This document shows, piece by piece, positions 9,304 to 40,547 of a DNA stretch of 47,212 bases. The DNA lies in IMG/VR virus record IMGVR_UViG_3300042923_000285, positions 1-47,212 of that record, one strand, 5' to 3'. The notes under the pieces are model-generated. The model did no database searches. It was not told the DNA's origin and was given only the letters and a program-made list of their open reading frames with translations. Position numbers and translations under genes: made by a program. The stretch is from a virus. The stretch's first letter is position 1, and every line of letters begins with the position of its first letter.

Positions 9304-9425
9304 AATTCACTTTCAGACGTTTCGGGTATTGCGATTTTCATGTTGGTTTGGCGTTCAAAATGAGCAAAGAAGACAGGTGGGTAAGGGTGGCGTTGGGAAA
9401 ATGGATGTTGGCGATAGAGCTATGA
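9300..9425 (+). CDS. small hypothetical protein, 41 aa
   Basis: ATG 9300 overlaps the regulator's stop (ATGA) and its own stop overlaps the RusA start. It fills the gap precisely, so it is probably translated. Composition is basic with many aromatics (MKFTFRRFGYCDF...). No family recognised. Confidence 0.55.
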   Translation: MKFTFRRFGYCDFHVGLAFKMSKEDRWVRVALGKWMLAIEL

Positions 9426-10573: not shown

Positions 10574-10924
10574 ATGCGTCAAATCAAGTTTCGTAAATGG
10601 GATTTTGAAAACAAGGAAATGATTGACGGTGATTCTCTGGCGTTTGAAGAGTATCTGCCGATTTGTCAGCATCTTACGCAAGAGGGGATCATGCAATACA
10701 CCGGACTCCAAGATAAGAACGGTATCGAGATTTATGAGGGCGATGTACTTGAAGATGACGAAGACATTGCAAAGGTAGTTTTTGAAATGGGGCAGTTTAT
10801 GGCATTTTACCGAAACAGTATGGGCGAATGGAAACCATACGGGACATTGTTGAAATACATGGTCGATCATGATGGCAGAATCGTCGGAAACATCTATGAG
10901 TGTCCAGAGTTGGCGACAGCTTAA
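10574..10924 (+). CDS. YopX family protein, 116 aa (copy 2)
   Basis: Same family as the gene at 2078: RQIKFRKWDFENKEM at the N-terminus, YTGLQDKNGIEIYEGDVL in the middle, RIVGNIYECPEL at the end. Sequence divergence from copy 1 is large, so the two are old paralogs or separate acquisitions. ATG 10574 follows GGAGGG. Function of the family is unknown. Confidence 0.9.
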   Translation: MRQIKFRKWDFENKEMIDGDSLAFEEYLPICQHLTQEGIMQYTGLQDKNGIEIYEGDVLEDDEDIAKVVFEMGQFMAFYRNSMGEWKPYGTLLKYMVDHDGRIVGNIYECPELATA

Positions 10925-11197: not shown

Positions 11198-11881
11198 ATG
11201 TTTCCAGACTTGCAGGGATTCGATTGGGCAAAGTCAGCCATCGAGAGAGTAGGCAGAATGAAACGAATGATCGGTAAAACGGTACTTGGGGTGTTTGGGT
11301 TTTATCCGCAACACGCAGTCAATCGTGCTGAAATGGCGCAAATTCTTTCTAGGACTCCGATGACGTGGGGTGAGGTGGTGCGGTTCGCCACTCCGAGCGT
11401 GTGCAGATTGGACAAGGGATCGCAAGGAACGGGATTCGTAATTAGTGACAAGGGGCACATTATCACGGCTGCGCATGTAATCGGAACCAAAACGTGGATG
11501 AACGTCACATTCCCAGACGGATCAACAGACACAGCAGATGTTGTTGCTACTCACATGAGCTATGACATAGGTATTCTCAAACTGCGTACGTTGCGTCCTC
11601 CTGCACTTTCGGTTGACGATGATGACAAAGTAAGGATGGGGGACCAAATCGCTTCCTTGGGATATCCTAGCGGGTCGTTTGCGGTTACGTGGGGATTCGT
11701 CGAGAGGGAAAAGACAAACAGCGACGGTTCGTTCGATGTGGCGACAACATGGGGTTCGGGAAATAGTGGGGGTCCGGTGCTAAATCAATGCGCCGAAGTG
11801 TTGGGAGTCGTGCGGTACTCGAACGGAGAGGCAACGAATGCGGTGTATCTCAAAAAGTGGATAGAAGAGAAGACGAAATGA
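11198..11881 (+). CDS. SLH domain fused to trypsin-like serine protease, 227 aa
   Basis: Residues about 2-51 fit a complete S-layer-homology domain (FPDLQGFDWAKSAIE..., then FGFYPQHAVNRAEMAQIL), a module that binds pyruvylated cell-wall polymer in Bacillales. Residues about 60-225 are a trypsin-like (DegP/S1C) protease with an intact triad: H93 in TAAH, D123 in YDIG, S190 in GSGNSGG. There is no signal peptide and no PDZ domain, so the protein has no visible route outside unless released at lysis or carried by the virion. ATG 11198 follows AAGGAGG. It ends the run of genes separated by 24-nt repeats. Role unknown; S-layer or host-surface cleavage is inference. Confidence 0.85.
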   Translation: MFPDLQGFDWAKSAIERVGRMKRMIGKTVLGVFGFYPQHAVNRAEMAQILSRTPMTWGEVVRFATPSVCRLDKGSQGTGFVISDKGHIITAAHVIGTKTWMNVTFPDGSTDTADVVATHMSYDIGILKLRTLRPPALSVDDDDKVRMGDQIASLGYPSGSFAVTWGFVEREKTNSDGSFDVATTWGSGNSGGPVLNQCAEVLGVVRYSNGEATNAVYLKKWIEEKTK

Positions 11882-11911
11882 TTGGACAAGCATCATAAGC
11901 CATTGTAAAAT
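11882..11911 (+). promoter_or_regulatory. candidate promoter for the 11.9-12.2 kb RNA
   Basis: TTGGAC (11882-11887), 18-bp spacer, TAAAAT (11906-11911). It starts immediately after the protease stop codon and would transcribe the gene-free region. Moderate match only. Confidence 0.45.
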
Positions 11912-11917
11912 GATGAC

Positions 11918-12219
11918 AAATAACATGACGCGAGTGATACGAGAATCGAACGGGCGGACAACGTCATTGCATCGGCTCGAAGTCATCGCGTAGTAACCGG
12001 AACTGGCACTTTTCCGAGTGCGAATGTTATAAAATATGCAGCAATACACGCATGAGCGCAGCTATAGGCGCTCCCCAAAGAATACTCTAGCTGTTAGCCT
12101 ACATACAGGCGCAATGGTCAGCACTATGGAATGGTTCTAAACAAGATTAAAACTAATCCTTGGAGCGCATTGGTCAAATGAGTCCGCCTTAGTCTCCCTT
12201 TGGCGGATTTATTTTATTT
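11918..12219 (+). ncRNA. candidate structured non-coding RNA, about 300 nt
   Basis: This gene-free stretch shows several complementary segments: a long-range stem ACGCGA (11928-11933) with TCGCGT (11986-11991), enclosing CGAG/CTCG (11940-11943 / 11976-11979); a hairpin GCACT/AGTGC (12006-12010 / 12017-12021); and a perfect 6-bp stem GAGCGC/GCGCTC (12054-12059 / 12068-12073). A 12-nt near-repeat GCGCAwTGGTCA occurs at 12109 and 12165. It ends in a rho-independent terminator at 12183. No open frame on either strand looks like a gene. I cannot assign it to a known RNA class; it is not a tRNA, and I do not see tmRNA features. Confidence 0.6.
12183..12219 (+). terminator. rho-independent terminator of the 12 kb RNA
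   Basis: TCCGCC (12183-12188) pairs with GGCGGA (12202-12207), 13-base loop, followed by TTTATTTTATTTT. Promoter P2 begins three bases later. Confidence 0.85.
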
Positions 12220-12221
12220 TA

Positions 12222-12255
12222 CTATCTTTACAAACTGTAGATAGTTGTTTATACT
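12222..12255 (+). promoter_or_regulatory. promoter P2 with CTATCT/AGATAG operator dyad
   Basis: CTATCT (12222-12227), AGATAG (12239-12244); -35-like TTTACA (12227-12232), 17-bp spacer, -10 TATACT (12250-12255). Same architecture as P1, P3 and P4. It drives the 12.3-14.0 kb block of small genes. Confidence 0.8.
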
Positions 12256-12296
12256 GTGGTTGTGGGGATAATAACAGGCGAAAGAGGCGAAGGGAA

Positions 12297-12716
12297 ATGA
12301 CAAACGGGGTATCAGTTATTGATGAATTTTTTGCAAAATGGGAAGTGGACACGAAGGGATGGTACAAAGCAAAAAAAGCTGAATACAAAGAGATTGGATA
12401 CTCAGCTTTTTCGAAAAAATATCATGGCATTCTCTCTAAACAGACATTTGAACTTATGCGGATGAAATTTGAAAAAGGTCAGGGATACACGAGTGTAGAG
12501 GATGTTATCGAAAAAGATATGGCGATTAAAAAGGCAAAGCTGCTTTCTAAGATCGCAGGCAAAGTAGGGAATATCGTAGAGCTAAACCTCCGTTGCGGAG
12601 CCGATGGAACGCCGAACGGCAAGGTGACAGGAGACGCAGGGGTGGCTTACATTAGTACGATTATTGCCGGAGGTCACAATATCCAGTGTTTACACTATCG
12701 AGTATTGGTCAAATAA
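12297..12716 (+). CDS. conserved-looking phage protein of unknown function, 139 aa
   Basis: First gene downstream of P2. The C-terminus (VAYISTIIAGGHNIQCLHYRVLVK) has the compact glycine/histidine pattern I associate with small Bacillota phage proteins of unknown role; the N-terminal half is charged and helical. ATG 12297 follows AGGCGAAGGG. A short AAACAA...TTGTTT dyad follows the stop. Confidence 0.7.
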   Translation: MTNGVSVIDEFFAKWEVDTKGWYKAKKAEYKEIGYSAFSKKYHGILSKQTFELMRMKFEKGQGYTSVEDVIEKDMAIKKAKLLSKIAGKVGNIVELNLRCGADGTPNGKVTGDAGVAYISTIIAGGHNIQCLHYRVLVK

Positions 12717-38433: not shown

Positions 38434-38604
38434 ATGGGGCAATTCAACAAGACGCTTCTAATGCCGATTGTGGCGTTCTTGGCGCTTATCATCAAATGGT
38501 TGACCGGATATCAGATGCCGGACGTAGAAATGGACATCGTAGCGACAGGTATTTTGGGAATTATTACAGCAATCGGCCTCTGGATGAATCGAACGAAAAA
38601 ATAG
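38434..38604 (+). CDS. second holin-like membrane protein, 56 aa
   Basis: Two membrane helices (about 9-24 and 37-50) joined by a short charged loop (MPDVEMD) and a basic C-terminus (MNRTKK), a small class II holin layout. ATG 38434 follows AAGGGGGTA. Together with the 37376 gene it gives a holin/antiholin-type pair. Confidence 0.72.
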   Translation: MGQFNKTLLMPIVAFLALIIKWLTGYQMPDVEMDIVATGILGIITAIGLWMNRTKK

Positions 38605-38605
38605 G

Positions 38606-38630
38606 TGGGGGTTTCCCCATCTTTTTTTAT
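38606..38630 (+). terminator. rho-independent terminator after the lysis genes
   Basis: TGGGG, loop GTTT, CCCCA, then TCTTTTTTT. Promoter P3 begins seven bases after it. Confidence 0.85.
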
Positions 38631-38636
38631 TTTCTA

Positions 38637-38669
38637 CTATCTTGACAAAGTGTAGATTGTTGTTATTAT
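38637..38669 (+). promoter_or_regulatory. promoter P3 with CTATCT/AGATtG operator dyad
   Basis: CTATCT (38637-38642) and AGATTG (38654-38659), one mismatch from the P1/P2/P4 dyad; consensus -35 TTGACA (38642-38647), then TATTAT (38664-38669) at 16 bp. A better -35 with a weaker operator suggests lower dependence on, or lower repression by, the shared regulator. Confidence 0.75.
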
Positions 38670-39827: not shown

Positions 39828-40049
39828 GTGAAACTTGATATTCACCAAGACAGTTTCAGAGGGTACTTGACGAACGGAAAATATTATTCAAACGGAAAGA
39901 AAATCAGACTCATTAAAGATATTGGTTATGACGAAATTACATATGCCAAAATCGAAAATGGTATTGAGGTAGGGACACCTAAAGTCGTCAAAGCACAGAC
40001 TTTTGAAGCATGGGCGAAATACCCTGTATCAGTAAATATGTCTGTTTAA
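39828..40049 (+). CDS. hypothetical protein, 73 aa
   Basis: GTG 39828 follows GTGAGGTTG; the frame opens upstream at 39792 but has no ribosome site there. Basic, beta-rich (YLTNGKYYSNGKKIRLIKDIG in two pieces). No family recognised. Ends in copy f of the 24-nt element. Confidence 0.62.
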   Translation: MKLDIHQDSFRGYLTNGKYYSNGKKIRLIKDIGYDEITYAKIENGIEVGTPKVVKAQTFEAWAKYPVSVNMSV

Positions 40050-40069
40050 CACAATAGTTATTGAGGAAA
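40046..40069 (+). repeat. 24-nt palindromic element, copy f (degenerate)
   Basis: TTAACACA, 8 bases, TGAGGAAA: left half intact, right half diverged. It overlaps the preceding stop codon and lies before the GGGGTG site of the next gene. Confidence 0.5.
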
Positions 40070-40082
40070 ACGGGGTGAAGTA

Positions 40083-40205
40083 ATGCCGCGAAGAAAATAC
40101 TGGCTTATAAAGTGCAAACGTTGTAACGGTTCCGGCAAGAGGGAAGGTTCTTGGGGAATACCTTGCTTGTTATGCCACAAAGGAAAGGTAAAGGTGAAAA
40201 AATGA
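40083..40205 (+). CDS. DnaJ-type zinc-finger miniprotein, 40 aa
   Basis: ATG 40083 follows ACGGGGTG. CKRCNGSGK and CLLCHKGK form one CxxCxGxG-like zinc site, related in type to the finger in the 2568 gene. Very basic. Function unknown. Confidence 0.65.
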   Translation: MPRRKYWLIKCKRCNGSGKREGSWGIPCLLCHKGKVKVKK

Positions 40206-40279
40206 CCGAGCAACAGATCATTTTAACGCTGGCTTATGTTATAATCGATCCAATTAAATTTCAGCTAATGAGGGGGTGA
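40202..40279 (+). CDS. possible 25-aa peptide overlapping a small RNA promoter
   Basis: ATG 40202 overlaps the previous stop and gives MTEQQIILTLAYVIIDPIK... A hydrophobic stretch is visible, but the same bases carry a strong extended -10 promoter, so this may not be a gene. Confidence 0.3.
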   Translation: MTEQQIILTLAYVIIDPIKFQLMRG

Positions 40280-40345
40280 AGTGACACCTCCCATCTGCCG
40301 AGTCCTCTTGGAAGGAGCGCCATACAGGGCGCTTTTTCTTTTTCC
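40237..40345 (+). ncRNA. small RNA candidate 1 with own promoter and terminator
   Basis: Promoter: extended -10 TGtTATAAT (40237-40245). Expected start near 40252. Three hairpins follow: GGGGGTG/CACCTCC (40272-40278 / 40285-40291), CCGAG/CTTGG (40298-40302 / 40307-40311) and terminator AGCGCC/GGCGCT (40316-40321 / 40328-40333) with TTTTTCTTTTT. About 90 nt, with no confident coding frame inside. Confidence 0.6.
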
Positions 40346-40377
40346 GTCAATCGCCTAATGTGGGGCGGTCGGACAAG

Positions 40378-40466
40378 TGGTACAATATCCATGTATCCGC
40401 GAGTTGCTTTTTTCTCGCGTATTACACTCCGTATATTGAGTCGGAAAATAATCCGGCTCTTTTTTA
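40378..40466 (+). ncRNA. small RNA candidate 2 with own promoter and terminator
   Basis: Promoter: extended -10 TGgTACAAT (40378-40386). Hairpin CGCGAG/CTCGCG (40398-40403 / 40414-40419), then terminator GAGTCGGA/TCCGGCTC (40438-40445 / 40452-40459) with seven T. About 75 nt. It lies between candidate 1 and promoter P4. Confidence 0.55.
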
Positions 40467-40471
40467 AATCA

Positions 40472-40505
40472 CTATCTTTACAAAGTGCAGATAGCATGAT
40501 ATGAT
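40472..40505 (+). promoter_or_regulatory. promoter P4 with CTATCT/AGATAG operator dyad
   Basis: CTATCT (40472-40477), AGATAG (40489-40494), -35-like TTTACA (40477-40482), 17-bp spacer, -10 TATGAT (40500-40505). Similarity to P1 continues downstream (ATTCATAA..CGATAACAAA), so these two share an origin. Confidence 0.82.
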
Positions 40506-40547
40506 GTATTCATAAGGCGATAACAAAACGAAAAGGCGGCGGTCAAA

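Follow-up and report, generated by a model that had tools for sequence, protein, structure and literature searches.

A 415-bp gap (positions 11882-12296) in virus record IMGVR_UViG_3300042923_000285, a compact tailed-phage genome of 47,212 bases that was analysed in full and is called the window here, may be a short phage-specific non-coding transcription unit, perhaps pairing through C-rich loops. We regard this as the best single reading and hold it tentatively; judged from its letters, the gap contains at best an unproven small regulatory RNA. If transcribed, it would be a regulatory RNA of a phage, with no known relatives, located where early genes meet late ones, and it would mark that boundary as a site at which non-coding RNAs are repeatedly retained by phages of Firmicutes. 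If not, the gap is a reminder that a region lacking a structured RNA may still combine a promoter match, a terminator and predicted stems. The gap extends from the stop codon of a protease gene (11881) to an ORF starting at 12297, and the features in and around it are as follows.

11198-11881, plus strand: trypsin/HtrA-like serine protease of 227 aa (Pfam Trypsin_2, 8.1e-25), upstream of the gap and the terminase region.
11883-11911, plus strand: promoter-like TGGACA-17-TAAAAT, matching the consensus at 10 of 12 positions.
11914-12176, plus strand: approximately 260 nt without a recognisable gene, with a predicted closing helix 11914-11917/12173-12176.
11920-12030, plus strand: predicted 5' domain, in which helix 11920-11926/12024-12030 encloses a long arm (11928-11991) and a hairpin (12006-12021).
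12054-12093, plus strand: alternative local stems, both short, 12054-12059/12068-12073 or 12059-12067/12085-12093.
12109-12120, plus strand: first copy of a 12-nt near-repeat, GCGCAATGGTCA.
12165-12176, plus strand: second copy of the 12-nt near-repeat, GCGCATTGGTCA.
12176-12214 (core 12183-12207), plus strand: intrinsic terminator, a hairpin followed by a T-rich run.
12222-12244, plus strand: operator CTATCTTTACAAACTGTAGATAG, holding the -35 of the next promoter (TTTACA-17-TATACT, 12227-12255).
12297-12716, plus strand: downstream ORF of 139 aa, no family found.

Family matches place the gap on the plus strand behind the replication genes, a RusA-like resolvase (9329), a YopX-like gene (10574) and the protease (11198). 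ORF 12297 follows, then the small terminase (14085), large terminase (14521), portal, major head and tail sheath genes, and finally the tape measure, baseplate, endolysin and RecE/RecT genes. The host is likely a Brevibacillus-like Firmicute, given the similarities of terL: the nearest copy among 30 genome loci is that of Brevibacillus sp. SYP-B805 (78%), and the top identity is 79% in viral contigs (among the best 80 of 172) and 68.4% in phage records. HtrA-type NCBIfam models match the protease below their cut-off; a pattern search of the viral contigs returned no relative of it, and its phage-record relatives, in seven records, are distant only (26-31%). The C-terminal stretch of the ORF at 12297 is common to a few phage proteins. 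Ahead of a relative of this ORF in another locus (L003:4625-4745), a stretch of approximately 110 nt has complementary ends (AGATAAGTGGTAT / ATATCACTTATCT); it is possibly a structured leader and has no Rfam match at gathering score. The window also carries two phrog_98 genes in one phage genome, at 2078-2461 and 10574-10924, the second of which also matches Pfam YopX.

With ORFs of at least 45 codons counted on both strands, the gap is the largest in the window (the next measures 216 bp), and it is also the largest with plus-strand ORFs of at least 45 codons (next 312 bp). Lowering the plus-strand threshold to 30 codons divides the gap into stretches of 154 and 156 bp on either side of a 34-codon ORF (12036-12140), and raising the threshold to 60 codons leaves two others longer (425 and 498 bp); once shorter ORFs are counted, the gap is unexceptional. 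The first-pass annotation had described the region as free of any coding frame, which is not strictly correct. A minus-strand ORF of 89 codons (11780-12049) covers 11882-12049 and overlaps the protease gene by approximately 100 nt, and plus-strand ORFs of 27 and 34 codons lie inside the gap, with no Shine-Dalgarno sequence seen by eye. Eight of the 13 stop-to-stop frames had no match at 1e-3 in Pfam and PHROGs; the best E values, 0.012 (Pfam, 15.5 bits against a cut-off of 27) and 0.055 (PHROGs), both belong to the minus-strand 89-codon ORF. The three-base periodicity of the gap is 1.39, compared with a shuffle mean of 1.02 (95% at 2.04) and a median of 2.71 (5% quantile 0.89) for tiles at 61 ORF starts; it lies below the lower quartile of the coding tiles and still within their spread, a value compatible with coding. 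It is nonetheless unlikely that the gap holds a still unrecognised small gene, such as the minus-strand 89-codon ORF, or what erosion has left of a gene or cassette that came in together with the protease. The several short frames, the lack of a protease relative in the viral contigs (patterns used) and the absence of a match to the region in 82 viral loci would suit such an origin, but eight of 13 frames lack a family match at 1e-3 and the periodicity is nearer to the shuffles than to the median coding tile.

The gene-poor interval flanked by promoter-like and terminator signals, as outlined by the first-pass annotation, is real. Its candidate promoter at 11882 was confirmed as a sequence signal at 11883-11911, by consensus match only. 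The site begins 2 nt past the protease stop codon, and transcription from it would start near 11918. Nine plus-strand sites in 47 kb, this one included, match at least 10 of 12 positions, and in three of the nine the -35 lies within an operator. Because the 3-kb neighbourhood holds six promoter-like sites of at least 9/12 on both strands against 4.9 in shuffles, a consensus match alone is weak evidence.

At the other end, the strong terminator reported at 12183 was borne out: the stretch 12176-12222 folds at -18.7 kcal/mol (z -6.34), and none of 200 shuffles was equally stable. Its loop (12191-12200) is C-rich (AGTCTCCCTT), and the hairpin was missed by a simple terminator scan with a loop limit of 8. 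Behind this terminator lies one of four plus-strand copies of a promoter-operator (CTATCTTTACAAANTGNAGATAG), at 2495, 12222, 38637 and 40472; four copies of the 12222-12244 operator at up to three mismatches compare with 0.01 expected in the window. An operator-like inverted repeat, CTATCT-N11-AGATAG, occupies 2495-2517, 12222-12244, 38637-38659 and 40472-40494. All four operators enclose a -35-like hexamer (TTTACA or TTGACA), three with a promoter match of at least 10/12 and the 2495 copy with 9/12 by eye, and they precede start codons with a purine-rich stretch at 2568 (165 codons), 12297 (139), 38692 (38) and 40548 (149). Each is in turn preceded by a terminator hairpin (2446-2469, 12176-12214, 38603-38622 and 40438-40459), ending 25, 7, 14 and 12 nt before the operator, respectively. 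Given that 14 terminator-like sites are listed on the plus strand of 47 kb, a terminator at four of four operators is, by our estimate, far above chance. Consequently, the terminator at 12176-12214 is also explained as an insulator of the following promoter, and it belongs at least as much to this module of terminator and regulated promoter as to an RNA. The four insulated operator-promoters likely form a phage regulon; among 179 loci, the operator pattern without mismatch occurs only in two loci derived from the window. As a separate observation, the 498-bp stretch 40050-40547, which holds no 60-codon ORF on the plus strand, has two hairpin-T-run sites (40311 and 40438) in front of an operator promoter and no Rfam match at E up to 1.

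The module bears directly on the reading that ranks next and is nearly as likely as a non-coding RNA, namely that the gap is an inert spacer or 3' UTR. In that case the early operon would run through the protease to 12176-12214, insulating the next promoter, while the 260 nt would be functionless as RNA and the promoter match a product of chance. A terminator with an operator-promoter at all four operator copies agrees with this possibility, as do a fold not above shuffles and the lack of detected homologues. However, the equivalent arrangement at 2446 reaches into the end of the ORF at 2078-2461, with no long untranslated stretch, and a 10/12 promoter exactly at the start of a gap is uncommon.

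Folding analysis did not sustain the description of the region as a structured RNA. With the terminator included (11915-12222), the plus strand reached z -3.16, with one of 100 shuffles as stable; the minus strand with the terminator region was not above shuffles (z 0.16). Without the terminator, the stretch 11912-12178 had z -1.15 (22 of 200 shuffles as stable; z -1.08 and 15 of 100 in a repeat run), the 5' part alone z -1.35 (21 of 200) and the 3' part alone z -0.58 (55 of 200). Once tiles were corrected for GC, 38 of 118 on the plus strand, or 51 of 236 with both strands counted, equalled or exceeded the stability of 11912-12178. The terminator, part of a module that recurs four times, accounts for the excess stability, and the rest of the fold is ordinary; homologues for covariation were not found. 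The nested complementary segments listed by the first-pass annotation are present, but the fold stands out only when the terminator is included. Similarly, the 12-nt near-repeat at 12109 and 12165 exists, but six of 60 dinucleotide shuffles also hold such a pair. Pair probabilities in the predicted 5' domain are mostly above 0.6, and the 3' part is ill-defined. In the local stem 12059-12067/12085-12093, the loop GCGCTCC (12068-12074) can pair with 12162-12168 as a pseudoknot candidate, and a C-rich CTCCCC lies at 12071-12076.

Least probable is that the gap acts as a DNA-level site, for cohesive ends and packaging or for binding, rather than as RNA. It lies approximately 1.9 kb before the small terminase gene and holds short direct repeats, but these are at chance level, and a promoter and a terminator would not be expected at such a site. 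Furthermore, in the record of phage phiC2, whose terL is related, the match to terL begins at base 771; if that record starts at the packaging site, the site would lie beside the terminase genes and not 2 kb off.

Among these explanations, a short non-coding RNA is favored because a 10/12 promoter with 17-nt spacing stands at the start of the gap and a very stable terminator near its end, and because the gap is the largest at a threshold of at least 45 codons, has no protein family and shows low periodicity. It is weakened because no homologue was found, leaving no conservation or covariation, because the fold without the terminator is ordinary and because the terminator is explained by the module. 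In the proposed mechanism, a sigma-A-type promoter behind the protease gene would start an RNA near 11918 that would end at the terminator near 12207-12220, giving approximately 300 nt, and the terminator would additionally shield the regulated promoter that serves ORF 12297. Such an RNA would most likely act by base pairing in trans: its CUCCCC (12071-12076) and, in the terminator loop, UCUCCC would bind purine-rich ribosome binding sites on phage or host mRNAs, in the way RoxS/RsaE acts in Firmicutes. Against 61 ORF-start windows of the phage, a 17-nt stretch around CUCCCC gave a mean pairing value of -10.15, better than the -7.57 for windows inside ORFs and the -6.99 for its own shuffles (none of 200 as low), its accessibility being predicted only. 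The terminator loop was weakly better than shuffles at the ORF-start windows (-10.54 against -9.96, 12 of 200). These pairing results are weak, because any C-run pairs with Shine-Dalgarno sequences and the ORF starts were taken as called. A more elaborate version, which we consider rather improbable, is a phage-specific, two-domain RNA of approximately 300 nt whose core works like a switch and which controls the translation of late phage genes or host genes. Here, GCGCUCC (12068-12074) would have two alternative partners, GAGCGC (12054-12059) close by and GGAGCGC (12162-12168) farther away, the latter forming a pseudoknot, and the pairing chosen would expose or hide the C-rich seed CUCCCC. Such a switch would parallel, but be unrelated to, the SpaA1-type non-coding RNA described below, which occupies the corresponding place.

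Homologue searches covered phage, plasmid, viral-contig and bacterial collections, which may omit records very near the window, and found no homologue of the gap region. Searches with blastn gave no convincing relative among phages (best row E 0.4, 12% of the query) or plasmids (best E 0.4, 6% of the query). In 82 viral loci (L003-L084), the best blastn E was 0.16 and nhmmer had no match; the whole records of 34 of them (33 with related terL, plus L003) were also negative (0 of 34). Among bacteria, the region was absent from 11 genomes from the 30 genome loci (0/11), the order of the Brevibacillus genome (0/39) and the families of the Alicyclobacillus (0/41), Geobacillus (0/41) and Paenibacillus (0/394) genomes, and a class sample gave one match of 27 nt (1/398). 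Some genomes are shared between these searches, and for the Paenibacillus family and the class sample at most two first-look candidates per genome were scored, so weak matches may escape. The 27-nt match lies in a frame that, by our reading, resembles cytochrome oxidase subunit II; it has no further similarity and was set aside as chance. Five exact 16-17-mers occurred in 3, 30, 7, 1 and 15 viral-contig stretches. When the region was locally aligned with these loci, no piece around a seed exceeded 44 nt, the best E values being 0.22 (152 loci; none by nhmmer) and 0.018 (17 loci; 19-23 nt including the seed). A covariance model of the 5' domain (R1), for which the window was the sole input sequence, matched nothing but the window itself in 55 sources. 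Its one match in 39 genomes (E 0.025) had many broken pairs and was rejected as chance.

Known RNA classes were compared next to these searches. The Rfam search proposed with the first-pass annotation was run: Rfam 15 gave no match at gathering scores in the whole 47212 bases, so its statement that no class could be matched stays true. For 11850-12320, with E up to 10, the single match was CyaR/RyeE (RF00112), which shares a likeness in the terminator loop (AAUCUCCCUU vs AGUCUCCCUU in the gap); with 16.8 bits (E 2.5) where the gathering score is 47, it was dismissed as a chance-level match. We agree that GOLLD and ROOL do not match, as neither gave a covariance-model match. They resemble the putative unit in being phage-borne non-coding RNAs, but are larger, many GOLLD RNAs exceeding 800 nt, and often lie near tRNA islands (PMC12286853). 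In contrast, the gap unit would measure approximately 300 nt, the 47,212-base window has no tRNA genes, and no Rfam match was found. RsaE/RoxS (RF01820) resembles the putative unit as a short, terminator-ended RNA with C-rich stretches that may meet Shine-Dalgarno sequences (for RoxS, PMC5419742). Its model has 112 positions, unlike the gap unit of approximately 300 nt, and has no match in 11850-12320 at E up to 10; it does find copies in loci L177 and L178 (90.4 and 91.4 bits).

Gaps upstream of terL were also inspected in 17 related loci. In three contigs (L011, L012 and L013; terL 68% identical), a segment approximately 2.8-3.7 kb upstream of the terL match is conserved between them and mostly non-coding; a simple caller placed a short ORF over it in L012 and partly in L013. 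The segment recurs in phage SpaA1 at 40030-40278 (E 4e-7, 4e-12 and 2e-15 with three queries), after RecU, a zinc-finger/HTH gene and two sigma-factor pieces annotated Xpf. Plasmid pN24509_1 of Bacillus paramobilis carries it too, after RecU and an ArpU-family regulator, the match being 86.6% across 78% of the query. The members of this SpaA1-type RNA are:

L011:4985-5240, L012:4260-4530, L013:4800-5090, L176:1438-1703 and L179:2501-2739.

These five represent a conserved non-coding RNA of Bacillus-type phages and a plasmid, located upstream of late genes; given the three terL-related contigs that carry it, non-coding RNAs upstream of late genes occur in related phages, which speaks for the RNA reading of the gap. 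Rfam has no match to it at gathering scores. The aligned members share a long predicted hairpin of 34 pairs, of which five show changes on both sides and eight are disrupted or gapped in one or more of the sequences; the covariation term is -0.88. Covariation support is modest, because the structure was derived from the same five sequences.

The gap region is similarly positioned relative to the late genes, this RNA likewise has its own terminator-like end, and a Holliday-junction resolvase lies upstream in each case (RecU in SpaA1 and pN24509_1, RusA-like at 9329 in the window). However, a covariance model built from the five members (R2), run with filters off, gave six window matches of E 1.5-9.7, none inside 11882-12219, and local alignment with nine related stretches stayed in the shuffle range, the best being equalled by 19 of 200 shuffles. 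By these comparisons, the gap region is not a member of the SpaA1-type RNA. A diverged form of it, suggested by UUGGAG beside a GCGC-type stem, was considered and received no support from R2. In 39 genomes of the Brevibacillus order, R2 found nothing with 89 first-look candidates scored in each.

The SpaA1-type RNA has resemblances of its own. Its core CGTAAAGCGCG (L011:5060-5090 and relatives) resembles the 16S rRNA stretch GGGCGTAAAGCGCGC, which may be coincidence. An RsaE/RoxS-like end is present in two of the five copies: the 3' end of the SpaA1 copy scores 47.4 bits (E 2.7e-5, gathering 79) and that of the L012 copy, more weakly, 35.9 bits (E 0.028), with no RsaE match in L179 at E up to 1 or in L011 and L013 at E up to 0.5. 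Additionally, a 35-nt stretch of L012 matches, at 94%, two of 397 Geobacillus-order genomes, where Rfam calls RsaE/RoxS at 90.4 and 91.4 bits. The SpaA1-type RNA may be a host small RNA that phages captured, or may mimic one.
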